Assembly: GCF_002775205.1 (NCBI RefSeq)
Contig: NC_036456.1
Location: 20,857,968 to 20,921,967, forward strand
Length of the DNA stretch: 64,000 nt
Source: Xiphophorus maculatus
Lineage: Eukaryota; Chordata; Actinopteri; Cyprinodontiformes; Poeciliidae
Direction of reading: 5' to 3'
The notes under the pieces: generated by a model
The model's database searches: none
Told to the model about the DNA's origin: nothing
Seen by the model: only the letters and a program-made list of their open reading frames with translations
Made by a program: the position numbers and the translations under genes
In this document: positions 17,795 through 54,230 of the stretch, one piece after another
Layout: the number at the start of each line of letters is the position of its first letter
How positions within the stretch are numbered: the first letter of the stretch is position 1

Positions 17795-20700
17795 TCAGTC
17801 ACAGGTCTCCTCCAATCCCAAAGGTTTCTCAGTCATTTGGATCTGCTGGTCTGTAGCAGGATGTTGTGTTTTTAACGGACTCTGCTCCATATCCTCTGCT
17901 TTAATGGACAGACCCTGTTGAGTTTTAACTTTCAACGACCCAGCCCGTCCAGTGGATCTTAAAGAGCCACTTCTGAAAGACAGCCGTTTACTGATATGTA
18001 AGCGAGTGTGCTCAATGTCTTCCTTGAAGTTCTTGGTGGAGTAGTAGTACAGCAGCGGGTTGACCACGCTGTTGGACGCCGCCATGCACAGCGTTATCGC
18101 CACGGCTCTCTGCAGCAGGTTGGTGACGCCACAGTTCCAGCCGCCGTTCACGGCGTAAAGGTGCAGGGTCCGGATCACGTGGTAGGGCAGGAAGCAGAGC
18201 AGGAAGGTCGCTATCACCATGATGAGCAGGTGCACTGAGCGCTGGTTTTTCTTCCTTAACTTCATGCGCGTTTTCGGGTCCTGAGAATAATGTGGGTGTG
18301 TCAGACAGTGGATGATCTTGGTGCAACACAGGATGATGGTGAAGAACGGCAGCACAAATCCAAAAATCAACGCCACGTAGTTCATGCTGAGGATGCGGGA
18401 CCAAGACTGTGGAGTCGCCGGCTCAAAGCAGCGAGGTATTCCACCTCTGGAAGGAAGCAGAAGAGAAACTTCAGCATCCCCTGATCATCTGCTTGATCCC
18501 AGGCAGCAACAAACAAAGATGCATCACTGGTGCTCTGACTCTTACCTTTTATTAACGCCGCTGCCTAGGAAGGGCAGAGAGGACACGGCCACAAACAGCC
18601 AGATTCCCAGACACGTCAGTAAGGCTAACTTGAAGCTTTTCACTTTCTTATGATGTAGTGGATAGACGATGGAAAACCAGCGGAGGAGGCTCAGGAACGT
18701 GAGGAACAGGATGCTGAAAGGCAGAGAGAGCGGGAATGAAACTGAAATATTCCCCAAACCAAAGGGAAACTTATGGCATGAGGACGTCTCCTGTCCCACC
18801 TGGAGTAGAGATTGACGTAGAAGGTGTAGACACAGAGTCTGCAGACCCAGTCAGGAAAGGACCAGTGGCCCTTGTTCATGTAGTACGCCAGTCGCAGAGG
18901 CAGGGTGAGGGAGAAGCTGCCGTCAGACAGCGCGAGGTTCACCATGATCACATAGGCAGGCTTCCTCCTGTGGATGGAAGAGGAGATGGAAAATCAGGGC
19001 AATGTAGGAATTCACAGCCTGATCTCTTCCCTCAGTAGCAGGAACCTCTGTTTGTAAGACATTTGTCTTCCTGTTGGACATTGGGACAGAGGACAACACA
19101 GAGGAGCAGTGACTGGTTCCAGTAAAGTCCACCTGCTGGAAGTTCTCCAGTTTTCTCAGAGTCCAAACTGATCAAGGCTATGAAAACAGAGGAGACGTGA
19201 CACCAAACCGAGGGCTGAGTGAGAAACGGTTCTGTTCTGGTGTTTTGACCCTGCGGTGACCTGAACACCTGTCCACAGTGTCACCTGCTGGGAGACGACA
19301 CACCCAGTCCAACGCTGGTCGACATGTAAATGCTCCAAAAAATCCCGCTGCCAAATCATTTTCCGGGTAAAGATAGGATCTACCACAATCTGCTGTCTGA
19401 CCTCAAAGAGCCGGATTCTGGGTCAGACCAGCACAAAGGGCTGCAGAGGACAGCAGGTTTTAACTTTCCCCTTTTACTCTAATTCACCTAAATAAAACCC
19501 AGCCTCCTTCAGAAGTTACTCAGTAATCAGAGTCCACCTGCACTGACAGTCTGGGCAAGGAGAGCATTAAACTCTGGGGGAGCTGCAGAGATCCACAGCT
19601 CAGGTGGGAGAATCTATGAAAAGGAGAACCGTCTCACTTCCACCACACAAGTCTGAACTTTAGCAAAAAGAAAACGGTAGATGTTTGTCCTGTCACCCAG
19701 AGGGGTGTTAAGGTCATGTGACTGAGACTGTTTCCCCTTGATGGTCCGGTCGACCCGGTTCTACTGGAACCAGAACATCTGTTCCACCTCCAGCTGCTGT
19801 GGCTCTGACCCAAACCAACCTGTTCCCCTCCTGGCCTGTGGGGGCGCTGCACCAAGAACCACTGAAGGAAACGACACAAAAACTCTGAAGACACTGAGAG
19901 CAACTTCCTGTTTCACCAGATGGAAACAAGATGGAGGCGTCAGATTTTAGTGTTGAAGGATTTCTCTTTAGTCTTTGGCTGAAGATCAGGAGACATTTCT
20001 GCTGCTAGCGCTAGGCTAGCATGTTAGCTTTGGCTGTATTTACCCAGAATGCCCGGCGCTGTAGTCCACTTCCTGAGTTTGGAGCACTTTCTGGTCCCCT
20101 TGGTGTTCACATTCAAACTAAGCCAGAGTTCACTTCAACCAAACCCAGACTGAGGTTTGGAGGACCAGAGTTAGCTTAGCATTCACATCTCCAAAAAACG
20201 AACCGGACTTTCTACACAGACGGAGTGGAGTTGGATTAAAGCGACTGAACAGGAAGGAGGGAATGAAGCCTCAGATTGTCAGCAATGCAATGAGGAGATG
20301 TGAGTTTAATTTGTGGCTTCATGAGTTAGAATGGCCTAGTTAAAGTTAAGACCTAAATCCAACTGGGAATCTGAGGGAAGACTTGAAAACCGATGTTCAA
20401 CCTGACTGAGGTTGGATGGAGTCACTTTGTGTTGAATCCAAATAAAACAGTCAAGTTGTAACAAACTGTGGAAAAGTTTTACAGGACATGGAAACAGAAA
20501 ACACCTGGAAAAACCTTGAAATGACTCCAGAAATCCTGGAGATCCGGATCAGGATCCGTTTCAGGAATCAAAAGATAGTCTGACCGTGATTAAGGACGAC
20601 TGTGGGTGGTTGTATAGCAGAGTACAACATGTTTCTGACTGTTTTTCTTGTTAAAATGAGAGATTTGAGTTTCAGTCCCATTTGTTTCAACGCTGCACAG

Positions 20701-23700: not shown

Positions 23701-25134
23701 ATTAGGCAGAATCAGAAAGTTAGCAAAACGCAATAATTATAAAACTGAAACCAGAATAAAAGAATCACTTCCTGAAGTGCAAACAGGCAGGAGAGAGAGA
23801 ACAAATCTGATCCTGTTGTTGGCAATATACTATGTTGCTCATGTGTTGTCGTTGACACATTAGCAACCTTACTGAAATCAACGGTTTAGCACTAGGTTCC
23901 ACTAAACACCATGTTGGTATAGCATTAGCTAATGCTAAATACCATGTTGGTATAGCATTAGCTAATGCTAAGTACCATGTTGGTATAGCATTAGCTAATG
24001 CTAAGTACCATGTTGGTATAGCATTAGCTAATGCTAAATACCATGTTGGTATAGCATTAGCTAATGCTAAATACCATGTTGGTATAGCATTAGCTAATGC
24101 TAAATACCATGTTGGTATAGCATTAGCTAATGCTAAGTACCATGTTGGTATAGCATTAGCTAATGCTAAATACCATGTTGGTATAGCATTAGCTAATGCT
24201 AAGTACCATGTTGGTATAGCATTAGCTAATGGTAAATACCATGTTGGTATAGCAATAGCTAATGCTAAATACCATGTTGGTATAGCATTAGCTAATGCTA
24301 AATACCATGTTGGTATAGCAATAGCTAATGCTAAATACCATGTTGGTATAGCATTAGCTAATGCTAAATACCATGTTGGTATAGCACTAGCTAATGCTAA
24401 ATACCATGTTGGTATAGCACTAGCTAATGCTAAATACCATGTTGGTATAGCATTAGCTAATGCTAAATACCATGTTGGTATAGCACTAGCTAATGCTAAA
24501 TTCCATGTTGGTATAGCACTAGCTAATGCTAAATACCATGTTGGTATAGCATTAGCTAATGCTAAATACCATGTTGGTATAGCACTAGCTAATGCTAAAT
24601 ACCATGTTGGTATAGCATTAGCTAATGCTAAATACCATGTTGGTATAGCATTAGCTAATGCTAAATACCATGTTGGTATAGCACTAGCTAATGCTAAATA
24701 CCATGTTGGTATAGCACTAGCTAATGCTAAATACCATGTTGGTATAGCATTAGCTAATGCTAAATACCATGTTGGTATAGCACTAGCTAATGCTAAATAC
24801 CATGTTGGTATAGTGCTGTAGCTTTAGTGGAACTGATGTTTAGTGCTTTACGGTAAGTGCAGCTAACGTTTTCGTTAGCGGCGCCACCACGGCCATGTGT
24901 TTATGATTAAAGTGTTTCAGGGTCAAACCTGCGTTTCTTCTGCCTGAAGAAGACCACCAGTGCTAAGATGTTGCAGAGGAACGCCACGGGGAACACCAGG
25001 AAGTAGGTCAAGATGTAGGCATTGTATTTGAATTCGTCGTCGTCATGGGGACAGGTCCGCGTGTTGATGCTGCTGTTTGGGGCGGTCGTGTTGCCGGCCA
25101 GCCAATCTGGAAAACATCCACACACAGAAACCAT
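17795..25134 (-). CDS. cysteinyl-leukotriene-receptor-like GPCR
   Basis: Exons (minus strand): 24929-25134, 18800-18967, 18546-18713 and 17795-18446. All introns are GT-AG and the frame stays open for 397 aa from the ATG at 25134. It is a rhodopsin-class seven-helix receptor. The N terminus has NTT and NSS glycosylation sites. TM1 is AYILTYFLVFPVAFLCNILA; TM2 has NLALSD. RLCVYTFYVNLYSS in TM3 and RCFEP in loop 2 closely resemble CysLT1. TM5 is NYVALIFGFVLPFF, TM6 FLLCFLPYH and TM7 ending NPLLYYY. As in CysLT receptors, the DRY motif is absent (LRW here). The family couples cysteinyl leukotrienes to Gq calcium signalling at the plasma membrane. Multi-exon coding is unusual against mammalian single-coding-exon genes. 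Which CysLT paralogue it is remains open. An alternative first exon may lie at 30157-30232. Confidence 0.88.
19728..21953. repeat. long inverted repeat in GPCR intron 1
   Basis: Arms at about 19728-20245 and 21388-21953 are inverted copies of one another. Both read from an outer CTGTTTCCCC(C/T)TGATGGTCC edge through CGGTTCTACTGGAACCAGAA, GCTAGCATG and GTAGTCCACTTCCT, to an inner AGTTGGATTAAAG. The spacer is about 1.1 kb and carries a GATCTGGATCCTCCA array (20714-20815) and an AGAAGCAGAAAC array (21011-21061). The arms differ by point changes and small indels. They could be one foldback element, or two copies of a non-autonomous transposon in opposite orientation. Confidence 0.85.
22243..22536. 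repeat. 12-bp minisatellite
   Basis: About 24 copies of GCTGTTCATT(A/G)G occur. The A/G alternation at position 11 is irregular. The array lies in intron 1 of the GPCR. Confidence 0.95.
23377..24890 (+). mobile_element. MITE copy carrying the 33-bp array
   Basis: The flanks of the 33-bp array match the element at 37140-37660 in the same orientation. Shared on the left are TTTAGCGCACTTAGCTT, GATGCTCTTATTTTGAAGT and CCCAGAATGCAT. Shared on the right are AACT(G/A)ATGTTTA, AGCTAACGTTTT and GTTAGC. The terminal inverted repeat seen in the other copy is degraded here. The insertion sits in GPCR intron 1, just beyond exon 24929-25134. Confidence 0.65.
23909..24816. repeat. 33-bp minisatellite with internal palindrome
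   Basis: About 27 copies of a 33-bp unit occur that includes CATGTTGGTATAGC followed by the perfect palindrome GCATTAGCTAATGC. Some copies carry GCACTAGC or GCAATAGC, which weakens the palindrome. No unique spacers separate the units, so this is a plain tandem array. Confidence 0.97.
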
Positions 25135-26486
25135 GGAGGAAAAGGTCAAGAAAGATGATCAGAGTTCATCTTATCAGCATCCATGAGAGTTTGTCCTGTC
25201 TACCAGACTCTAGGCTGGAGCTAACAGCTGTTAGCATGAAGCTGAAATGAAATGTTTGCATTCTCTGGGATTCTGTCAGTCTGAGTTCATCTCTGTCCTG
25301 AACACAGTGAGCTCCGTTCCTCAGCAAGGCGCCGGGTTGTCGGATCGATTCCAGCTGCTTCAACATCCAGGCTGTTTCTGTCAGTCAGGATTCAAACTGT
25401 TTCTCAGTGAAACTTCTGCTTTACTCTCGTGATGTCACATCCCGTCACTTCCTGTCCGTGATGTCACTTCCTGTCAGTGATGTCACAAATGCTCATCATA
25501 TCATTGGTTCTGTTTTATAAGACAATAAATAGTTTTTGTCGTCATGTTGTTAACGTTTTCATTTGTTAATCTAAAGTGATAATTAGATTCATTAATTACA
25601 TAAATTTTGATTAATCAGATTTTCCTTACATTAAAAGGTTCCAGCAACATCCAGTAACAACAGTTTTGTTGTGCTAAAAGCAGTTAGCCTATCAGTATAG
25701 AATAGCATATTAATGCTAACATGTAGCAGCTAATGCTAATGTCAGCATCCAGATTTCTAAAGAAACTCCATGATCAAACTCTGATCATTCATCTGATGGC
25801 TGAAGATTAAAAACTATAAATATCTTTATTATTAAGTTCAAATGTCTGTTTATTCAATAATTTAGCAGCAAAAATAGATTTTGGAATAAAGAAGTTGATC
25901 ATTTCAGTGATAGTTTAATTACAGACCCTGAAATTAACTCAAAGTTTTAACCACTAGTTTAAATAAATATTTCATTTAATGAGGATAAAGACACAAACAA
26001 ACGTGACGCGATGAGAAAAGGTTTTAACTCTCCAGGTTTCACAGACATCTGATTCCTGCCAGACTTTTACAAACTACAGAACCGTCTGACAACCAGAAAC
26101 ACACGGCCAGGAACTGAAGCAGCTCAGTTTTAATATTTTATCTAAGTTTTAATGTCAGTTTCTGCAGGTTTCTCACTAAAACAACCTTTCTTATTTACAC
26201 TGCAGCAGCTGGACGATTCAGATAAACTCAAATATTTACATCATTTCAGTGGAAATAACAGAACGAGACTTTAGGGAGGAATCATTTGGTGCAGCTGTGG
26301 ATTGTAAACTGCAGATTAACAGATTAATCTGGTGTTTGATCCAGATTAACACTGACATTCAGAGTGAAACCAGCTGAACTGTTTGAGCTCCGTTGAGGCT
26401 TCTTGTTTGTCTCCTTGGTAAATAAACTTCCAGCAGGGGAGTGGCAGCTTCTCCTCTGAGTGGACTGTTCTGTAAACTTTGCTGCA
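25135..26486. other. gene-free stretch upstream of GPCR exon 24929-25134
   Basis: No exon is supported. It is 5' flank if the ATG at 25134 is used, or intron if the exon at 30157-30232 is used. It contains a direct repeat of GATGTCAC(T/A)TCCTGTC near 25430-25490. Confidence 0.45.
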
Positions 26487-33840: not shown

Positions 33841-35243
33841 ACGTTCTGCTGCAGGACGTCGACCTGCAGCTTCAGACTTTAATGTTCCTGAAGGAAACGG
33901 TTTTCCACAGACCGGCTGCTGGACTCCCGTCGCCAGCGGCAGCAACAACGCAGCTCCTGGTGCAACTGACCCAGGGAACCTCAGCAGGGCTGATGCTGAG
34001 CCGGCAGGATCTTCCCACATGGAGCCGACGACACCAGAGGTCCAATACCTGCAGCCTGGGACCAATCAGGGTTCCTGTTACCGAGGCAACGATCTGTTAT
34101 AGTTCAAATGATTGAACTATAGTGAGTTTGAAGACATGAGGGAAGCTGGACGATACGCCATAAAAATGAAACCTGACACCAGATCCTGTTTTAATTTTTC
34201 TTTCTTTTCTAAAATAAGAAATTGCAAATGACAGAAAACATTTTCAAAAAGTATCTTTTGGTTCCATCAGGGCCGGGCTGGAAGGGTTTGTCTCTATTTA
34301 TCAGAATATAGACATAAAATTAAGTTTCAATAATTTTACCTGAATTAATTATTAAAATTATGAGAAAGTCATTTTATTGAACAGAAAGTTTGGATTTATT
34401 GTGTTGAGTTCTCACAAAATGAATATTTCATCCTTCTAATATTACGACTGTATTCATTATGACTTAATTAATGTAATGATTATTTAATCATGTAAACAAT
34501 CAGCCTCTAATTCTGTCATGAAGTCCAAACAGAGGCAGTAAAACAAGATGGCCGCCCTGCGGTGCTGACATCACAAGAAGCATCAACAAAAAACATCCAG
34601 ATTTTCCAAACATGAAATCTTCATGAAGCAAAACATCAATAAAAATCTTTTATTCATTTCTTTCCCTCTCTTTTTTACCCCAACAGGATTTATTGCCCCT
34701 CCCTGTTGCCCTGCTGCCCAGTGGAGGGGCAGGAATCCAGATGTTTTGTGTCTTTCCAGAGGTTCGTCTGGCTCCTCTTCGTCTCTCTTCAGTTTGCTGA
34801 TTTTCTCTCAGCATCAATAAATAATCAAAGCTGATTTTTCTGATTCAACTAGAACTTCATAAAGTAGATGTGACACAAAGATCTTCCCAGATCAGCTTTA
34901 AACTTTTAGAATCAGCTTTAAACTTTTATAATCAGCTTTAAACTTTTATAATCAGCTTTAAACTTTTATAATCAGCTTTAAACTTTTATAATCAACTTTA
35001 AATTCCTGCAACAACCTGAAGAATAAACAAAGTCATGAAAAAAATAAAAACTGAATTTTACTGAAATCTCTGGTTTGGTAACATAAATATTTTCTCTCTA
35101 TAAATATTAACATTTTTTTCAGGTTATAATGAATTTAAATGATGAGTCAGCAGGACAGAACCCAGATCAACAGAACCAGATGGTTCTGGTCGGGCTCTGG
35201 GTTCGGACCGCAGCTGTCCAGAGGTCAGAGGTCAGAGGTCAGG
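33841..35243. other. gene-free stretch 3' of the FcR-like gene
   Basis: The stretch holds a 20-bp CAGCTTTAAACTTTTATAAT array at 34905-35000 and a CCAATCAG (34062-34069) plus RFX-like GTTACCGAGGCAAC (34077-34090) pair. The part next to 35244 is probably 3' untranslated sequence of the FcR-like gene. Confidence 0.45.
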
Positions 35244-38200
35244 TCAGCAGCTGGACGGGTCGGCCGGGTCCGGTTGGGTCACTCTCCACTTCAGCAGGGA
35301 GTAAACCACGTGTTGTTCTGGTACCGCCGCTGGTTCTGGAGGGAAACAGAACCCGGGTTAGGAACCGTTTCCATGGAGACGACGTTCCGTCTCCAGTCTG
35401 TCAGACTGGTTTATCGTTCAGAAGTTTAATGGGATCAACTGGGTTGACCAACATCTGACCAATCAGGAGCTGCTCTCACGTCTTCACCTGTTACCATGGC
35501 AACGCAGCTGCAAACATCTGCAGCGAGACGTAAAACTGTTTTCCATAACATTAATGAAATAAAATGTTAATTATTTCAGATCCAAACTTTAAAATGTTTT
35601 TCAGATTTTCCTTTAAAAAAATTATAATTTTTTAGGCAAATTGGAACAAAATTGATTTGATTCTGAGCAATAAAATCAGGATTTGTGTTTGTAAACATTT
35701 CACTGCGTTTCATAAATAATCAGATTCTGATGCGGTAAGGACGAGAGGTCAAAGGTCACCCGGAGCAGCGGCCTCACCTCTCCTGGTCCTGATGCTGACC
35801 GGCCCGTACGTCACGTCTCTCTCTCTCCTCACCGATGAGTAAACGGGTTCTGGACCGGGTTCTGCAGCAGAACAGAGTCCGTCACTGAAACGCTTCCAGA
35901 TGCTGAGCGGAACATAGATCTGTGTTTCTAGAAGTGACAGGAACTGGAGAGCTGCTGGTTCTGGTGGAAACCATCAGAGGTTCAGAACCATCAGAGGTTC
36001 TGGACCATCAGAGGTTCTGGACCATCAGGATGAAACTCAAAGTTCCTCTGCATGATGCTGCCACCGTTCACAGGATGAGAGAGAAACCACCGGATCTGAG
36101 GTCAAACCCAGAAACACTGAACCAGATCTGGATTAAACTGATCTGGATCAACCTGGTCTGAATTTAACCTGATCTTTATTAAACTGATCTGGATTAACCT
36201 GGTCTGGATTAAACTGATCTGAATTAAACTGATCTAGATTTAACCTGATCTGGAATAACCTGATCTGGATTAACCTGATCTGGATTAAACTGATCTGGAT
36301 TAACCTGATCTGGATTAAACTGATCTGGATCAACCTGGTCTGAATGTTCCAGTACCTGTTGTGTCTGGAGCTTCTGGTGTGGATGAATAATCAGCTGCTG
36401 AGTCTAAACAGTTTAGGAGAAAAAATACAGAGAATAAAACATGATGAATATTTTTATATTTGAGGTTTAAATAATCAAACTGTTTGATCAAATCTTCTGA
36501 GTGTTTGTGAACCTGAACTGTTTCAGATCCAGTCAGATCAGATGATCGATTAGTTATTGGTTCTGTGTTCTGGTGTCAGCTGGTTTCAGATCAGTGGTTC
36601 TGACCCAGGAACTGACCTGCAGCAGTGACTGACCCGGTTCTGTCTGGTGAATAAACAGCTGCTGAGTTTCTGCCTGCAAACCAAACAGGTTGAGAGAAAA
36701 TGAAATAAAACGTAAAACATGACGAAGGTTATCAGACGTTACAGCAGCTAGCTTAGCTTAGCTCAAGTTATTCTGATCGGTTCACCTTAATAATCGATCA
36801 GGAGATAATTATGAATATTCAGTGAAATTGTTTCCCACAGCTGGAAGAATCTGACTGTTAGCATGTTAGCATGACTGCCCCATGCTAACATGCTAACAGC
36901 TCAACGCCCAGGCAGCAGAGATGATATTCATGACCTGCGTCAGCTGCTAGCTAGCTCTGCTAATCCTAGCTAACATCCATGAAGCTCCATTTAAACTCCT
37001 CTGGATTTCAGTTAGTAGTTAAAATGTTATTTGAGTTTTTGAAAAGCTAATCAGCTGATCCCAGTTTTATAGGAACAGTCCTCCTTGTTGCTATGGCAAC
37101 ACATTATAAACAACTGCTCAAAGGTAAAAAGGGTGAGATCAGTGGTGGGAACACTTTGCTAATCTGCTGAAAGGTGAGCAAATTATTCATTTAGCACGTT
37201 AGCATTTTTGTTAATGCAGGAAAAGTTTAGCGCACTTAGCTTCACCTAAATTAATTCTTACGGATAAATTCTGAAATGCTAATTTCCTCTGGTTTGGTTC
37301 TTCAGGTGGTTGGACGTTTATATTCATGCTCTTATTTTGAAGTGGAGGAAGTCTGTTAACGCAGCAGTTTCATTTCCTCTCCTTACCTTTTTCACCTGCA
37401 GCAAAAGATGTTTATCCTGTTCCCAGAATGCATTGCGAAACAGTTTGAAATCTCCTGAAACCTGAACAGTTTCAGTTCAGGAAGAGCGGGGGCGCCATGA
37501 CACGTTTCATCCAGTAGAGGGCGACATGCTAAATGAAACGATGTTTATCAACGTGGTTGAAGTTAGCACTTTAGCCTTAGCCTGCTAGCAGAACTAATGT
37601 TTATGGTTAGAGCTTTGTGGTTAGCATAGCTAACGTTTTAGTTAGCAGTTCCCACCACTGGGTAAAAGGAAAAATGCTGCACAGCAACTAAAAGCAGAAA
37701 GAATAAATTTCCCAAAATGTAAGAAGTGAAGCAATAAATGAAGATCAGAATAAATAACAGAGCTGCTCCATCTACAGCCTCAGCCTTAAACACAAACACA
37801 TTTCTGTTTCAGCTCCAACCTCAGTCTGATTTTAGTCAGACATCCTCTGATTGAAATATCCTGTTTCTGAGCAGCTATCGCTACGTTAGCATCCTGATGC
37901 AAACCTTCCTGTTTGCTGCTCTCCTCATGGATAAATGAAGAGCTGCAGCGTCTCTGGCTGCAGATTAGAGGAAGGAGAAATCAGCAACAGCTAGCAGCTA
38001 GCGGTGAAGCAGAAGGAAAATGTTGCAGTTTCTTTACCAATAAAACCCTGAAGATGTCGTGTGCTTTGTTTAGACCACTGAATAAAATCTAGAGCAGCTC
38101 ATTGCCACTGAAAATCTAAAATCACTTCAGCTGATTCTGGTTCTTTTGCTGATTAAACAGTTTAAACATCAAAACCTCAATAAAATCATTTCTAACCAAA

Positions 38201-41174
38201 CATGATGAGATCAGAAGCTTCAGGCGTTAAATCATGTTTGTGTCACTGAGGTGAAAACCGAAAGTAGAGCCCAGAAGACAGGAAGCAGAACAAACTCCAC
38301 AGCTTCTCTCACACTTTGACCACAAACATAATATTGAGCCAAAAGCTGCTGATGAAGCCTGAAGCCCCCCCGACTCTGCTGCTAAAAATAAAAGCCACAT
38401 TATATAAACCGGCAGTAAGACACAAAGCGGATAAACAGAGGAGGAGCTCAGGAAGCTGCTGGAGGAAGAAACCTGATGAAGAGTTACCTGCTGGCTTCCT
38501 GCAGAGGCGCCGAGTCAGCAGAACCAGGAACAGGAAGAAAAGCAGAAAACCGAGAGAGGAGAGAGAGAGGACCATGGAGAGAGGAAGAGGAGAGGAGGAA
38601 GGTGGAGGAGGAGTGGAGGAGAGTCTCTCTGAAATGAATCAAAGGTAATAATTTATTTCTTGTCTCCTGATGAAGGTTGAAGCAGACAGAGAAGCTGCTG
38701 ACCTCTGACCTTTGACAGAGATCCTGCTGGATGGAGACTCTCCATGACGGCTGATGTTACATTTATAGAGGCCTTCATCAGAGCTGGAAACATGGAGGAG
38801 GGTCATGTGACCTGATGGTCCATCACCAATGAAGGAGCCATCTTTATAGAAAGCAGCTGGGAGGTTGTGGGTTGGATTCTTTGCTCTGCAGCTCAGAGTG
38901 ACGTCATCTCCCTCCATCACAGGGAGGACAGGACTCTGCAGGATCACTGATCCACCTCAACACAGAGACAAACTACAGCATTTCATCCATTTCCACACAG
39001 CTTCAGCAACACTAACTCCACAGTCTGATCTTACCAACAGTGAGGTTCATGCTGCTGGAGGATCCACTGATGGACTCACACCAGTACAGACCAGTGTCTA
39101 ATGGGACAAGACCAGTTAAAGTACATGAAGAGTTCGCTGGTTGACCCCAGTCCTCACACTCAGCTCTGGTGTCTCTGGTTGTGTTTCTCCTCACAGTCCA
39201 TCCATCAGATCCGTTTTCATCCTCACAGATCAGAGTCACTGATTCATCCTTAAAGAACTGAGATCTGCTGGGACTCACAGTCAGAGGAACTGGGAGGACT
39301 GGAAATTCAGAAAAATACATTAAAACATTTATTTAACGTCACAAACCAGGAGTGTCATGTTTTAGCTTTCACTAACTGAGACGTCACTACACACAGCGCC
39401 CCCTGCTGGACATAAAGAACAGTTTAATAATTATTTACTTCAGAAAGTTGGTTTCAAATCGATCTGTTAACCAGATGTTTGTGTTTGTTTGTGGAATATT
39501 TTTGGTGGAGATTTAAATGAACATGAAAACAGATATTTTATGAATTATTTTACACTTTATTGAATTCCTCAAGCTGTTAAACCATCAGCATATGGAGGCG
39601 TTGATGTCAGAACGACCCAGAGTTTGGATTTATTTCATGTTTCCGTCTCAGAGTGAAAACTCTTCGATTTGTTCTGGTCCAGAAAATAAAACATGTACAA
39701 CTTTAGATTTAACACAAACAAGATGTAGAAACGTTACATTATTATTGAACCGTTCCTCCATGTCCAGCAGGGGGCAGTAAACAGGATAACAGTGTTTAAC
39801 TGAAGAGCGATTTACTGACTGTGACATCTGAGATTCTAGATCTGTGGTGAATTTACTCACCTGGGCTTGATGGCCAGAGAAGTTCTGATGTCAGCACTGA
39901 AAAATCAATAAAATTTATAAAAAATCAAAAACAATAACAAGAAACATGTTAAAGAGAGAATAAAGAAAAGAACAGAGACGAAACGTTAGACATGAGTGAG
40001 ACGTTCGCTGTCCTGCAGGGTCAGTGTTACATCCTGCAGTCCAGCTTTGAGTCACATCAGATAAATATTAGGGTGATGGTTCGGAGGCCCTCCAGAGTTT
40101 TACAGCAGTTTCATTCTAGAAGCTCAAATCGGATTTTTTCTGCTAATGAAATGTGACGCAGTCAGATTTGTGTGTGAAAAACTTTTCAGTCGTTTTTTAC
40201 CGTCTGGATTCTTCTGCTGCAGAATTATGACAAAAATTAAAGTCTTATAAAAGCCTTCAGACTGCAGACGATACGGTTTGGTTCCACATGTGGAGGCAGA
40301 ACTGATCCGATGTTTAGAGGTTCAAAAGATCGGAATCGGGCCGATCAGAATCGGGCCGATCAGATCGCCGTGAAAAAATCAGATTTTTGTCGCATTTTCC
40401 TTCAGTGAGAACGAAGAGAAAAAGTTTAATGTTTCAGTTACTGGTGGTAAATAATCTGAGTCTGATTTTAGTTTCTGTCTCTTAGAGTCACTGGAAGAGA
40501 TCAATGTCCATCTGGATGGGTCACACACACACACACACACACCCACACTGAAGAACCGTGTAAGGAGAGCAGTTAACTGTGTTTTGCTCGGTGGGACCAG
40601 ACAGAACCAACATGCAGAGACCAACCAGGAGACTCTAACCACTTACTTCCTCATCAAGCAGCAGAAATACTAAATGTTAATCATATTTACTGAAAGTTCA
40701 TAAACGCAGCTTGATACGAGTTTCTAGACCAGCGGTGGTCCTGGTCCTGGAGGTCCGGTGTCCTGCAGCTCTTAAACATCTCTCTGGTCCAACACACCTG
40801 AATCCAACAGCTGAATCTCCTCCTGGTGCCGTCAGGTTCCCCAGGTTCTGCTGATGACCTCATTATTTGACCCAGGTGTGTTGAAGTAAAGAAACATCTA
40901 AAAGTTGCAGGAAACTTTTAGGCCCTCCAGGCCCAGAGTTGTTCACCTGATCTAGAAGTTTAGAAAAAGTTCAAATCTTCGCCAGCAGGCTGACTGGCTG
41001 CTTCTCTCTGGTTTCCAGACAAACAGAAATAAATATGAAATGCTAAATAAAAATGAGTGAATTTCTCATCCTGTCATATTTTTCAGTTTGTCTGGTAAAC
41101 AGCTGATTTAATGAAGGTCAACCTGCAGGTTAAATCGGATTAAACTCACAGATCAGCCATGATGCTCCTCTCAT
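35244..41174 (-). CDS. Fc-receptor-like inhibitory immunoglobulin receptor
   Basis: Nine exons, all introns phase 1: 41150-41174, 39861-39896, 39035-39298, 38710-38946, 38488-38628, 36617-36673, 36356-36403, 35778-35861 and 35244-35335. Together they give an uninterrupted 327 aa. The signal peptide (MRGASWLI...) is split over two exons, the second only 36 bases, as in FcR/FCRL genes. Ig domain 1 has VTLICED...GLYWCE with NTT and NSS sites; Ig domain 2 has VTLSCRA...GLYKCNIS. A Pro/Ser linker leads to the TM segment [11 protein letters not shown] and basic RRLCRK. The tail has five tyrosines, including VTYGPV and VVYSLL, which fit the ITIM pattern; YSPD, YSST and VYSSV are weaker. An Ig-binding or other ligand role is inferred; the inhibitory role follows from ITIM knowledge. 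The three tail exons 36617-35778 rest on splice signals and phase alone. Confidence 0.78.
36120..36340. repeat. 15-bp degenerate repeat in an intron
   Basis: About 14 copies of (A/C)TGATCTGGATTAA(A/C) occur, with CTGGTCT variants, in the intron between the tail exons at 36356-36403 and 35778-35861 of the FcR-like gene. Confidence 0.85.
37140..37660 (+). mobile_element. hAT-type MITE with perfect 13-bp ends
   Basis: The element starts CAGTGGTGGGAAC and ends GTTCCCACCACTG, a perfect 13-bp terminal inverted repeat. The flanking 8-mers GGTGAGAT and GGTAAAAG agree at five of eight positions. The interior lacks a transposase and matches the copy at 23377-24890. It sits in an intron of the FcR-like gene, between exons 38488-38628 and 36617-36673. 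Confidence 0.75.
39393..39412 (-). promoter_or_regulatory. CTCF-like motif
   Basis: Read on the minus strand, TGTCCAGCAGGGGGCGCTG fits the vertebrate CTCF consensus core very well. It lies in the intron before the first Ig exon of the FcR-like gene. Similar sequence can also be carried by dispersed fish repeats. Confidence 0.5.
39761..39779 (+). promoter_or_regulatory. CTCF-like motif, opposite orientation
   Basis: TGTCCAGCAGGGGGCAGTA on the plus strand, about 350 bases from the minus-oriented motif at 39393-39412. The two form a divergent pair within one intron. Confidence 0.45.
40728..40945. mobile_element. palindromic MITE-like repeat
   Basis: GGTCCTGGAGGTCCGGTGTCC at one end pairs loosely with GGCCCTCCAGGCCCAGAG at the other. 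CAACACACCTGAATCCAACAG pairs with CCCAGGTGTGTTGAA inside. This layout is common among small non-autonomous transposons of fish. It lies in intron 1 of the FcR-like gene. Confidence 0.6.
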
Positions 41175-42106: not shown

Positions 42107-44602
42107 ATGATCGTGTTGCTTTTCGTCGCCTGTTTCCTTCAGGTTTCTGCTGCTGACGGTGAGTTTGTAGGTTTTATGTTCAGAAACATTAAGTTTGTAG
42201 GTTTTATGTTCAGAAACATGAAGTTTGTAGGTTTTATGTTCAGAAACATGAAGTTTGCTTTATGTTGGTGAGATTATGGTTTGAATATCTGACGGATCTT
42301 CATGATAAACAGTCTGAACTTCTGAACAGATGTTAGCAGGACGTCTAATGTTTTATTTATTATTCATCTTTTAGTACAGAAACATAATCTTAGCTTCATT
42401 TTAAAGTTTTCCTTCAAATCTAAAAAATGATCAACCAAGCAGAGCAGAGCAGGCTGGAGCTGGTTGGTTCTGCTGCTTTAACCAGCAGGGGCTCAGTAAG
42501 TAAGTAGGTAGGGAGGGAGGGAGTCTGTCTGTCTGTCTCTGTCTGTCTGTCAGTCAGTCTCTCTCTCTGTCTGTCTGTCTGTCTGTCTGTGTGTCTGTCT
42601 CTGTCTGTCTGTCAGTCAGTCTCTCTCTCTGTCTGTCTGTCTGTCTGTGGACAGAAACCTGACGGATCAGGAAATAACTCGAGCAGAAACGTCAAACATT
42701 CGTCCCATCACCACGTCATTAACTCGTTGCTCTTATCTGGCTCCTTGTTTCAGTAACAAGTGTTCTAACACGTTACTATTTATAATCCAATAATCAGATT
42801 AAAGTTATGAATCCATGTAGCAAAATGACTGTTATTCCAGGACTGAACACTAAACTTTATCTCAGCCAGATAAATCCTCTGCTGCACAAACAGGCCAGCA
42901 GATTCTGATGTTTCATTGGTCAAAATGCATTAATGTAAGTTGCCTGGTAACTGAACAGTTTCTGCCTTTTTCTAAAACCTTAAATTAAAAACAGCTCATA
43001 AAATAAGACTCAGCAGTTTTAAACTCAGTCCAGCAGTTTGACCAACAAAAATAAAATCTAAATAAGTTTTGTTCTTGAACAAACAGTTCAACAGTTTGAT
43101 CTACAAAATAAATAAAGTCTAACAGACATTTAGCTCCTCACTGATAACTACTAACTACTAACTACTAACTACTAACTACTAACTCCGTCTCTCTGCTTTC
43201 AGTAACTTACCAACCATGAGCCATAAAAACAATAAATGATTTTCTCTCCTGTCATTTTCAGCCACAAACATTAAACTAAAATATCCACTGATTGTGTTTC
43301 TGCCTCTGCAGCCTGATGCTCCTGCATGGATTCATGGATTCATGGATTCATGGATTCATGGATTCATGGATTCACAACAGACACTGCAGTGATGAACAGC
43401 ATCAGAATATGAATTAACTAAAGATAAAATAATATGATTTTATCAAACAGAATGAGAATTTAAACAACTTAACAATATTCAGATGGAAACATTATTATAC
43501 ATCTCAACTCTATTTACTGTTTAAATTGTTTCTGATAGCAAAACTTTTCACTCATTAATTATTAAACCTCAAACACTTTTCTTATCGTCTCCTAACCAAT
43601 AACCTTACAGTGTGGAAATAATGAAAAAATATTGAAACGTTGACAGAAATCAACCTGACATCAGTCTCACCTGTTCTATTATAATTAATATAATTTTATA
43701 TCCTCACATCCTGAAACTAAATGAAGACCTGACAGAGCTTCTTCATCATTCTAGCACTGCATATAATATAATATAATATAATATAATATAATATAATATA
43801 ATATAATATAATATAATATAATATAATATATTATAATACAATATATCAGTGTCCCATATTGTCCCTCAGCAGTATGAGTCTCTGTAGTAACTAATGTCTG
43901 GTTCTGCGGTCCGGTCCAGTGATGGTGACACCAGGGGGAGACGCTGACCTGCAGTGCCAGATTCCCGGCGCCGCGGCGGCCACCGTGGTGGAGTGGACCA
44001 AAGACGACCTGCCGGCCAACGAATACGTCTTCTTCTACCGCAACGGCCGGCCGTACGACAAGTACCAGCACCAGGCCTTCAGAGGCCGAGTGGCGCTGAA
44101 GAACCGGTCCGGCGCCGGCAGCGGGGACGTCTCTCTGGTCCTGAAGAACGTCTCCGTGGAGGACAGGGGGACGTTCCGGTGTCGGGTTCTGATGAGCAGC
44201 TCTGGGTCCGAGGCCAAGGAACACCTTCAGGTCAGCAGGCTGAAGGTCGCGCTGCGTTCAGGTACGTTCAGGTCACAGTGGTTCCTCTTCAGCTGGCAGG
44301 AAACTGATCCGATCCGATCTGCAGGAAACGAAGCAGGAAACGACGCAGGAAACGACGCAGGAAACGAAACAGGAAACGAAGCAGGAAACGACGCAGGAAA
44401 CGAAGCAGGAAACGAAGCAGGAAACGAAGCAGGAAATGAAGCAGGAAACGTCCAGAGCGTCGTCACAGACGGAGCAGCAGGTCCAAACGTTTTTGTCCTT
44501 GTTGGAGTTTTCATGCTTTGTGTTTCTGCTGTTGTTGTTGTTGGTTTTTATCTGTACAGGAGAAAAAAGAAAAGTTCACATCAGACGACAGAAGTCGTAT
44601 GA
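42107..44602 (+). CDS. V-set immunoglobulin membrane protein (B7/butyrophilin-like)
   Basis: Three exons, 42107-42158, 43920-44261 and 44325-44602, all joined in phase 1, give 223 aa. Exon 1 is a signal peptide ([17 protein letters not shown]). Exon 2 is one V-set domain: DLQCQ with the first Cys, [15 protein letters not shown], the teleost-typical [10 protein letters not shown], and DRGTFRC with Phe instead of the usual Tyr. Exon 3 encodes a stalk of ten GN(E/D)A-type tetrapeptides, a TM helix ([20 protein letters not shown]) and a short basic tail ending HQTTEVV. The product is a single-pass type I cell-surface protein, probably a co-stimulatory or adhesion-type ligand; the partner is unknown. 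It is a paralogue of the gene at 52382-54230. The start of exon 3 inside the repeat is the least certain boundary. Confidence 0.82.
42162..42652. repeat. 30-bp and GTCT repeats in V-set intron 1
   Basis: Three copies of a 30-bp unit (AAGTTTGTAGGTTTTATGTT...) immediately follow the exon 1 donor at 42159. A GTCT tetranucleotide tract fills 42520-42650. Confidence 0.85.
42653..43919. other. V-set intron 1, remaining part
   Basis: Non-coding intron. It holds CTAACTACTA repeats at 43150-43185, a TTCATGGA(T)-type 10-bp run at 43324-43374 and an ATATAAT tract at 43761-43840. The acceptor is GGTCCAG|TG at 43919/43920. Confidence 0.7.
44325..44455 (+). repeat. in-frame 12-bp coding minisatellite
   Basis: Ten full copies of GGAAACGA(A/C)GCA encode GN(E/D)A units in the stalk of the V-set protein. 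Because the period is 12, copy-number change alters stalk length without breaking the frame. Confidence 0.9.
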
Positions 44603-47348: not shown

Positions 47349-47418
47349 GTTGATGGTGTTTATATATAATGAACAAAAAACCTTCAGGAATTATTTAGCT
47401 TACACCAAAAGCTACATA

Positions 47419-49063
<1,645 letters not shown>

Positions 49064-49883
49064 TAAGTTGGTAAATCATGTGAGTAGGCCTGTCACGATA
49101 GCAAATTTTGCTGAACGATTAATTGTCTCAAAAATTATTGCAATAAACGATAATATTGTCTGAAGACATTTTTACACTGATTTAATGGAAATGACGTAAT
49201 AATGCAGGCGATTTCCTGCCAAAGATAAATACACTTTATTTTCAAAAGAACACTAAACACTGGAACTGATAAACTAAATAAACAAAACAACCAAAAACAA
49301 AAATAAAATGGATTCTCAGTCTCCATTAATAAAAAATGTACTTGATAAAAACTAAACAACATAAAGCCAAAGTGGAAATAAATACTGCATTCAACCAAGA
49401 ATGCAGATTATGAAGTCTGTATATTATGTTGCCCTTCAGTAATAATTAGATTTAAATAGAGAAGATGGGCACATCGACTACCTGATGCAATAATTCACAC
49501 TACATGATTTTTTGCTCCTATTTTTCCCCTTATGACAATCTTAAAACGTTGGTCTTTCTAAGATTGTGTGGTGTGTTACGGTAGATCATCGTTGCCGCTC
49601 CGATCTAAATCAGGTTTTTCCCCACTGGGATCTTAACACAGCCTGTTGAATGTGACAGGCAGCCAATCAGAAAGCGCGGATTCTCCTCAGTGTTTTCTGA
49701 GGGTAAATTACCGATGGGAATCCCAAACAGCTGATACGGCGCAACCCGAAGTCCAGCGGACATTGGAGATGATATGTGGAAACAACATTAATGTTTATTC
49801 AACATGCAAAGAATATAGAAATGACAAGAGGAGGAGTTGGAGCGAAATTGCTACCGCAGTTGATAAACCCGGTAACTTTTCAG

Positions 49884-52381: not shown

Positions 52382-54230
52382 TCAAATCACCTGCTGCTCA
52401 TCTTTAGGTTGTTGCTCTGATCCCAACCTGAACTTTGACAAAACTGCAGATCTCCTGAGAAAACAACCAATAATAATAATCAAGATGAGAAGAAGCAGCA
52501 CAGATCCAACGACGACAACAAATGGAAGTGAATCGTTTTCATGGCTCAGTTCTCCAGTTCTCCTAGTCTGGTCTTCATCCTGGTGTTGCTCCTCATCACT
52601 TCCTGCAGATCAGAAACCAGACAGACGTTGATCACCTGATCCTTCGGCTCCCGAAGGAAGAGAGACAGACATACAGAGAGACAGACAGAGAGACAGACAG
52701 AGAGACAGACAGACAGACATACAGAGAGACAGACAGAGAGACAGACAGACAGACAGACCAGAGGACACACAGTTACTGTTTTAACCATAAAACTGTGAGT
52801 AACATCAGCATCTGGAAGGATTTAGAATCTGAATCTAGGCGGTCTTCACCGTCTGACCTGATGGATCCACAGCTGGAAACTCACCTGAGACCGTCAGGTT
52901 GACAAACGAGTGACGGTTCCCATCATGACCTCCTGACCTCTGGGTGATGATCACACAGTGATACGTCCCTTCATCCATCTTGCTGACGTTGTGCAGAACC
53001 ACAGAGAAGTCTCCGTCCTTCAGGGAGCTCCTCAGGTCCACTCGTCCTCTGAAGGACTCGTGTTGGTACGACTCGTATGAGCGACCGTTACGGTAGAAAA
53101 ACACGTGATCCGAGTCCAGACCGACTTTGGTCCAGGTGAAGAGCAGAACTTCTTCATCCGACGGTCCGAGACACTCCAGAGAGACGTTCTGTCCCAGCTT
53201 CACGTTCACCTGCTGCTGACCTGGAAGAGCCAGAAAACAGAACCAGGTCTGATTGGACCCGACCTGAGCAGCTGCTGATCCAAAACCGGAGATAACTGAT
53301 AACTGGAAACCCAGAGCAGAACCACGAGTTTCATTTCAGAGAAATAAAAACTCTTTTTATGGGACAGATGAACCGCCGGTCTGCAGAATGCTTCTAATGT
53401 TGCAGGATTATGTATTATTATTATTAATAATAATTTTTGTTTGAGTGTTTATACCATCATAGATGCATAAGTGAATAATTTATAACAAATGCACCAACAG
53501 ATTTAAAGAAAGAAAATTTAGTAGGAGGATAAAACTCAAAACATCAAAGGAAAAAAAAACATAATTATGTTTTGAAAACAAGGAAGTGATTCTACAAACA
53601 TGATGAAAAATTAATTCCAGTCGCGTTTAATCAGTTCTGCTGTTATTAACTGTAAGTTTATATCTTTAACTTTACAGTTTCTTCATCATATTAGAAAAAA
53701 ACTGAGTATTTCACAAATGTTGCACATCAGCTGTGATGAAATGATGTCATGATCTGAGATTATTGCAAAACTAATATGACACATAAACAACAAACATGTT
53801 GGGTAAATTCATATAGAGTCAGAGGAGGTTCAGGAAACAGCAGCAGGAAGTTCTGAACGGGGCGGGTCCAGAACCGCAGAGACAAAACAAGTTCAAATAT
53901 TTAGCTGCAAATTAAAAACAGTCTCAATGAGCAGGTTTGAACATGAACAGTTCTTCTAAAGGCTCTTCGACCTGCTTTCATTTCCTCTTGCACAGTAAAT
54001 CCACAAAGAATCGATCAGGAAATTAAAACTACAGGTTCAACTTTTTTATTCGAATAAGATGCATATTAAACTGTTTACATTTTGCACGATGCAACATCGG
54101 TCTATTTATGCATGTTCACATTATTAACAGTCATTAAAACGGGCCGATCCTCCCCGACACGCAGCTTACCGAGAGTTTCTGAATAAACTGCAGACAGGAG
54201 GAAGGAGAGGAAAACCCAGAGAGGAGACAT
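52382..54230 (-). CDS. V-set immunoglobulin membrane protein (B7/butyrophilin-like), second copy
   Basis: Exons 54170-54230, 52885-53220 and 52382-52602, all phase 1, give 205 aa. Exon 1 is the signal peptide MSPLWVFLSFLLSAVYS. Exon 2 is a V-set domain with [29 protein letters not shown] and DEGTYHC, plus NVS and NLT glycosylation sites. Exon 3 starts with an acidic linker (GSDEEQHQDEDQTRR), then a TM helix (VVVVGSVLLLLILIIIIG) and a tail ending KDEQQVI. It has the same exon plan as the V-set gene at 42107-44602, and shares the VFFYRNGR and FRGRV blocks, so the two are paralogues, now in opposite orientation. The linker here has no repeat. Function is inferred as a cell-surface immune ligand or receptor; the partner is unknown. 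Confidence 0.83.
52665..52762. repeat. GACA/GAGA microsatellite in an intron
   Basis: AGACAGAC and AGAGAGAC units lie between exons 2 and 3 of the minus-strand V-set gene. Confidence 0.9.

Follow-up and report, generated by a model that had tools for sequence, protein, structure and literature searches.

A Probable Fish FcR-like Receptor Gene with Two ITIM-Type Motifs in a Four-Exon Tail

We describe here a nine-exon gene on the minus strand, running from position 41174 to position 35244 of the 64000-base stretch of DNA that was analyzed (hereafter, the window). The gene is quite probably a teleost FcR-like gene of the FCRL/LITR type, whose product would be a 330-residue type I membrane receptor that inhibits via SHP-1/SHP-2. 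The signal peptide is encoded by two exons and is followed by two Ig domains, a transmembrane segment lacking charged residues, and a tail in four exons of 57, 48, 84 and 92 bases. The gene is well formed and ordinary, combining features already described for the family. An inhibitory receptor is the likeliest reading, basing on the uncharged transmembrane segment and two ITIMs located 21 residues apart, and the main rival to this reading is a receptor of dual sign.

Structure of the Gene

The window has a G+C content of 41.6%, contains no N and is abundant in tandem repeats (112 rows in the repeat list). When the nine exons (Table 1) were joined, a frame of 993 bases (330 residues and a stop codon) was obtained, in which all eight junctions are in phase 1 and the sole stop is at the end. 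The first-pass annotation had proposed the same four tail exons, phase-1 junctions throughout and an open model, all of which we found again, the tail exons having AG/GT borders, but its length of 984 bases should be corrected. The shorter length would be explained if the D2 exon, placed here at 38955, began 9 nt further along, at 38946. We rejected this 984-nt model because the acceptor at 38946 scores -6.3 versus -0.6 for that at 38955; among the AG sites in the window, the two are at the 39.9th and 82.1th percentiles, respectively. Splice sites were scored here and below with a matrix of splice-site frequencies, and percentiles were taken against the AG or GT sites in the window. A TAG is found in frame with the ATG, 27 nt upstream, and the core of the signal peptide is only moderately hydrophobic (best 11-residue mean, 1.53). 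The possible polyadenylation signal in Table 1 is one of seven AATAAA/ATTAAA sequences found after the stop codon in the stretch scanned to 33500.

The acceptor of exon 4 is rather weak, as are both splice sites of exon 7 (acceptor at the 77.9th and donor at the 91.7th percentile), and together with the repeat-rich surroundings this could be taken as a sign of a decaying FcR-like gene copy, i.e., a pseudogene. We consider this highly improbable, however, because the nine exons have no internal stop, no frameshift and no broken GT/AG, and the tail motifs are intact.

Table 1. Exons of the FcR-like gene and associated signals, in positions of the window.
Feature	Position	Strand	Remarks
Exon 1: start codon and start of signal peptide	41150..41174	-	25 nt; ends in phase 1
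Exon 2: remainder of signal peptide	39861..39896	-	36 nt; phase 1-1; donor at 99.9th percentile
Exon 3: Ig domain D1	39035..39298	-	264 nt; phase 1-1; four cysteines
Exon 4: Ig domain D2	38710..38955	-	246 nt; phase 1-1
Exon 5: stalk and transmembrane segment, no charged residues	38488..38628	-	141 nt; phase 1-1
Exon 6: tail, Y245 (AVYSPD)	36617..36673	-	57 nt; phase 1-1; resembles exon 7
Exon 7: tail, Y262 (ADYSST)	36356..36403	-	48 nt; phase 1-1; poorest splice sites of the tail
Exon 8: tail, Y280 (PVYSSV) and ITIM Y291 (VTYGPV)	35778..35861	-	84 nt; phase 1-1
Exon 8, alternative borders	acceptor 35927, donor 35760	-	lower-scoring
Exon 9: end of tail, ITIM Y312 (VVYSLL), stop codon	35244..35335	-	92 nt
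Possible polyadenylation signal	34689..34694	-	first AATAAA past the stop, 550 nt away; pattern only, weak evidence

Ig Domains and Family Assignment

Four Ig families of Pfam (Ig_3, Ig_2, V-set and ig) were detected above the curated cut-off, with the best stretches in D2. In comparisons with PDB chains, the whole model matched FCRL5 (E = 5.7e-13), FcgammaRI (1.1e-8), FCRL4 (1.1e-7) and FcepsilonRIalpha (2e-5); the homology to mammalian FCRL5, FcgammaRI and FCRL4 extends across D1-D2 and is strongest between D2 and FCRL5 (E = 6.7e-15 for D2 alone, with FcgammaRI next), which supports the FcR-like identity given in the first pass. D1 alone gave weak matches; the best of them, to FCRL5 (E = 1.4e-4), fell on the third domain of that protein, and further matches were mixed V-type domains and FCRL4 (0.022). 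Ig proteins other than FcRs, such as DSCAM, contactins and NCAM2, were also among the PDB matches listed for the whole model and for D2, and neither KIR nor LILR was found among the best 60 of 128 matches of the whole model or the best 60 of 990 matches of D2. A scan of bacterial/archaeal and viral contig collections with D1-D2 gave no relative. We also searched the window for further FcR-like copies by tblastn with parts of the model, and rejected them: only the gene's own exons were found at E<0.001, exon 1 matched itself at 0.051, and the best other matches had E values of 0.091, 0.16 and 0.21, the one at 0.16 lying in a V-set gene near 53.0 kb.

Residues 30-191 of the model can be aligned with residues 13-172 of FcgammaRI. 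In this alignment, Ser and Lys face two tryptophans of FcgammaRI D2, which we take to belong to the classical IgG-binding site, and IgG-like binding by that site is therefore unexpected. D1 has cysteines at positions 45, 68, 79 and 94, and thus a second disulfide is possible.

The gene carries Ig domains of the FcR D1-D2 type, with D1 alone matching weakly, and has one Ig domain per exon with phase-1 junctions and a signal peptide split across two exons. The lengths of the two signal exons, 25 and 36 nt, differ from the 30 and 21 nt that excerpts of PMC2413239 give for mammalian FCRL1-6, FcgammaRI, FCRLB and a fraction of the Xenopus XFL genes, a feature that is not family-defining. The 20-residue core of the transmembrane segment has no charged residue and the tail is long, and the gene therefore does not belong to the activating, adaptor-coupled FcR-like class, for which the same excerpts give an NxxR motif or another charged transmembrane residue and no or only a short tail.

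Frog FcR-like genes, so far as they are described in parts of PMC2413239, have phase-1 exons and two signal exons, and include a class with an uncharged transmembrane segment and separate tail exons; XFL cytoplasmic regions are encoded by one to five exons and carry YxxL/I/V motifs. The present gene is like the XFL TM2 long-tailed class of that description in its phase-1 exons, split signal peptide, uncharged transmembrane segment and separate tail exons bearing YxxL/I/V motifs, but it is apparently a fish gene, with two Ig domains and four tail exons that include a tandem duplicate pair. According to excerpts, FcRL genes have been found from bony fish on, with four FcRL5L genes in zebrafish (PMC4016189), and predicted FcRL5-, FcgammaRII- and FcgammaRI-like proteins of teleosts have been tabulated (PMC4810170, Table 2). 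Judging from these partial descriptions, they are probably the same kind of gene as the one found here.

Tail Exons

The acceptors of exons 6, 8 and 9 are at the 99.0-99.9th percentile, and the donors of exons 6 and 8 are at the 99.4 and 99.8th percentiles. When the score of the weakest tail exon was used as the threshold, 11 candidate phase-1 internal exons were found between the transmembrane exon and the stop codon, and the five with a tyrosine comprised exons 6 and 7 together with exon 8 in three versions. The G+C contents of exons 6-9 are 0.53, 0.48, 0.60 and 0.62, and those of introns 5-8 are 0.41, 0.35, 0.44 and 0.40, in this order. The multi-exon tail of the first-pass annotation is thus supported.

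Exons 6 and 7 are probably diverged tandem copies in which both borders and frame have been kept, as suggested by the likeness of their DNA: their alignment score was 40, with none of 2000 shuffles as good (maximum, 32). When flanks of 100 bases were included, the score was 45, again with 0/2000 shuffles as good, the likeness extending into the acceptor region; in addition, the two exons were mutual best matches among 6732 windows of both strands (within the top 8 rows). This likeness serves as an internal check that both are exons. Clear duplication was not found for other pairs of tail exons; shuffles as good as the observed alignment numbered 2/300 for exons 8 and 9, 7/300 for exons 6 and 8, and 28, 41 and 196 of 300 for the pairs 7/8, 6/9 and 7/9, respectively.

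Intron 7, which separates exons 7 and 8 and is 494 bases long, contains a 15-base minisatellite (AACCTGATCTGGATT) at 36120-36342. This repeat accounts for 223 of those bases and begins near the weak donor of exon 7; its length may differ between individuals.

We also examined whether the main product could end in another tail, by read-through of exon 5 or by an alternative last exon, giving an ITIM-less receptor or a decoy. Intron 5 is open in frame for 59 residues past the transmembrane exon (38309-38487, minus strand) with one tyrosine and no ITIM, and read-through would therefore yield an ITIM-less tail; the same intron holds, at 37687, a candidate for an alternative last exon with a score of 4.5, and both long- and short-tailed forms are mentioned for frog FcR-like families in excerpts of PMC2413239. 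On the other hand, the donor of exon 5 is at the 99.2th percentile and the splice sites of exons 6, 8 and 9 are high-scoring, and we regard such a main product as very unlikely.

Tyrosine Motifs and Signaling

The tail has 100 residues and five tyrosines. Searching with [ILVS]xYxx[ILV], i.e., the ITIM pattern [S/I/V/L]xYxx[I/V/L] as given in the available part of PMC4810170, we found two of the five in agreement, Y291 and Y312; Y245, Y262 and Y280 do not fit. This is the tail that the first pass had described, with VTYGPV and VVYSLL as ITIMs plus three further tyrosines. To evaluate chance expectation, 100000 tails of 100 residues were generated by shuffling, among which at least one ITIM occurred in 16.0% and at least two in 0.94%. 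We also collected, from the whole window, candidate phase-1 internal exons with a length of 30-150 nt and a score no lower than that of the weakest tail exon: an ITIM was held by 0/95 on the plus strand and by 4/64 on the minus strand, three of these four being versions of exon 8. Candidate last exons with an ITIM numbered 15 on the plus and 24 on the minus strand of the 64 kb, and VVYSLL alone is therefore weak evidence, as such last exons are not rare by chance. When the region was shuffled 200 times, the combination of an ITIM in an internal exon with another in a subsequent last exon arose once.

In an inhibitory receptor of this type, co-engagement with an ITAM-coupled receptor would allow Src-family kinases to phosphorylate Y291 and Y312, the phosphorylated pair would bind both SH2 domains of SHP-1/SHP-2, and the recruited phosphatase would then damp the neighboring activating receptor. 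The three proximal tyrosines in exons 6-8 may tune the signal or bind other SH2 proteins. Everything in this scheme beyond the presence of the ITIM pattern is drawn from knowledge of the family.

ITIMs leave the sign of signaling unfixed. Y280 and Y291 form YxxV-x7-YxxV (YSSV-x7-YGPV), which has an ITAM-like spacing with valine at +3. The tail contains no strict ITAM (L/I at +3), and a scan of it for ITSM (TxYxx[VI]), YxN, YxxM, YxxP and strict Csk sites found none; YxN, YxxM and YxxP are sites for Grb2, PI3K and Crk, respectively. The Csk motif is given as Y[TAS][KRQN][MIVR] in the available part of PMC4810170, and YSSV at Y280 fits it at two of its three variable positions. The nearest parallel for the tail, by description, is channel catfish LITR 1.1b (IpLITR 1.1b), which in excerpts of PMC7404264 and PMC4810170 recruits SHP-2 and Csk and inhibits phagocytosis on co-crosslinking, yet can activate phagocytosis too. 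In both tails, the proximal part has three tyrosines outside any ITIM and the distal part has two ITIMs; the ITIM spacing is 21 here versus 22 in LITR 1.1b and PECAM-1 (PMC4810170, in part), and the present receptor differs in having two Ig domains rather than four and five tail tyrosines rather than six, as well as in lacking the ITSM and the strict Csk motif, so far as the two can be likened by such partial descriptions.

Because LITR 1.1b both inhibits and activates, and because Y280 and Y291 have ITAM-like spacing, the inhibitory reading is given as a probable one. A dual-function receptor like IpLITR 1.1b, whose proximal tyrosines would activate, or inhibit independently of SHP, depending on cell type, could work through Y280 as a near-Csk site or through the YSSV-x7-YGPV pair binding Syk. 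The pair starting at Y280, the partial Csk fit and the excerpted parallel of IpLITR 1.1b, with its tyrosines in the same order and both activities, speak for it, but the lack of a strict Csk motif and of a strict ITAM speaks against it, and we regard it as possible though somewhat unlikely. The prediction of an inhibitory receptor made in the first pass is therefore retained as the likeliest, on the basis of the uncharged transmembrane segment and two ITIMs, with the qualification that a catfish receptor with such a tail, as known from excerpts, also activates.

Skipping of tail exons was also examined in silico, and the frame was kept in all five forms. When exon 6, exon 7 or both are skipped, both ITIMs stay; skipping exon 8, or exons 6-8 together, leaves one, and after loss of all three this is VVYSLL. 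Transcripts skipping exons 6, 7 and 8 had been named in the first pass as evidence that would overturn its reading; this criterion partly misses its target, as skipping of exons 6 and 7 would not overturn it. A further idea, which we think rather improbable, is that exons 6-8 are frame-neutral tyrosine cassettes mixed by splicing, so that Y291 would act both as an ITIM and, with Y280, as half of an ITAM-like pair, giving inhibitory, mixed and activating forms.

Other Features of the Window

Several other features were noted. A Tc1-like element at 47414-49068 has 232-nt terminal inverted repeats that are 98% complementary and looks young and complete; it contains a frame of 321 codons, stop-free from stop to stop (47872-48837), which we take to be transposase-like from reading its translation. 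The presence of this element and the appearance of the FcR-like gene are the basis for calling the DNA teleost. A GPCR akin to cysteinyl leukotriene receptors lies at 17795-18993 on the minus strand (its 3' piece matches CysLT2 with E = 5e-23, and its 5' piece matches CysLT1 with E = 1e-12), and because it spans at least two frames, it has introns or is broken. A further short frame at 24907-25158 (minus strand) resembles by eye the N-terminus of such a GPCR; Pfam found no match in it. Two frames contain V-set Ig domains, one at 43895-44602 on the plus strand (Pfam V-set, 1.4e-12) and one at 52835-53335 on the minus strand (6.5e-16), the nearest solved structures of the latter being pIgR, JAML and butyrophilin 2A1. 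In the former, a 12-base minisatellite (44321-44450) is read in frame as an AGN-rich repeat and separates the Ig domain from a hydrophobic segment.

Concluding Remarks

The gene otherwise repeats a layout known from frogs and, for its tail, from catfish. What is provided here is the exon map of a gene whose tail escapes simple open-frame scans, together with a clear test of signaling by a fish relative of Fc receptors.
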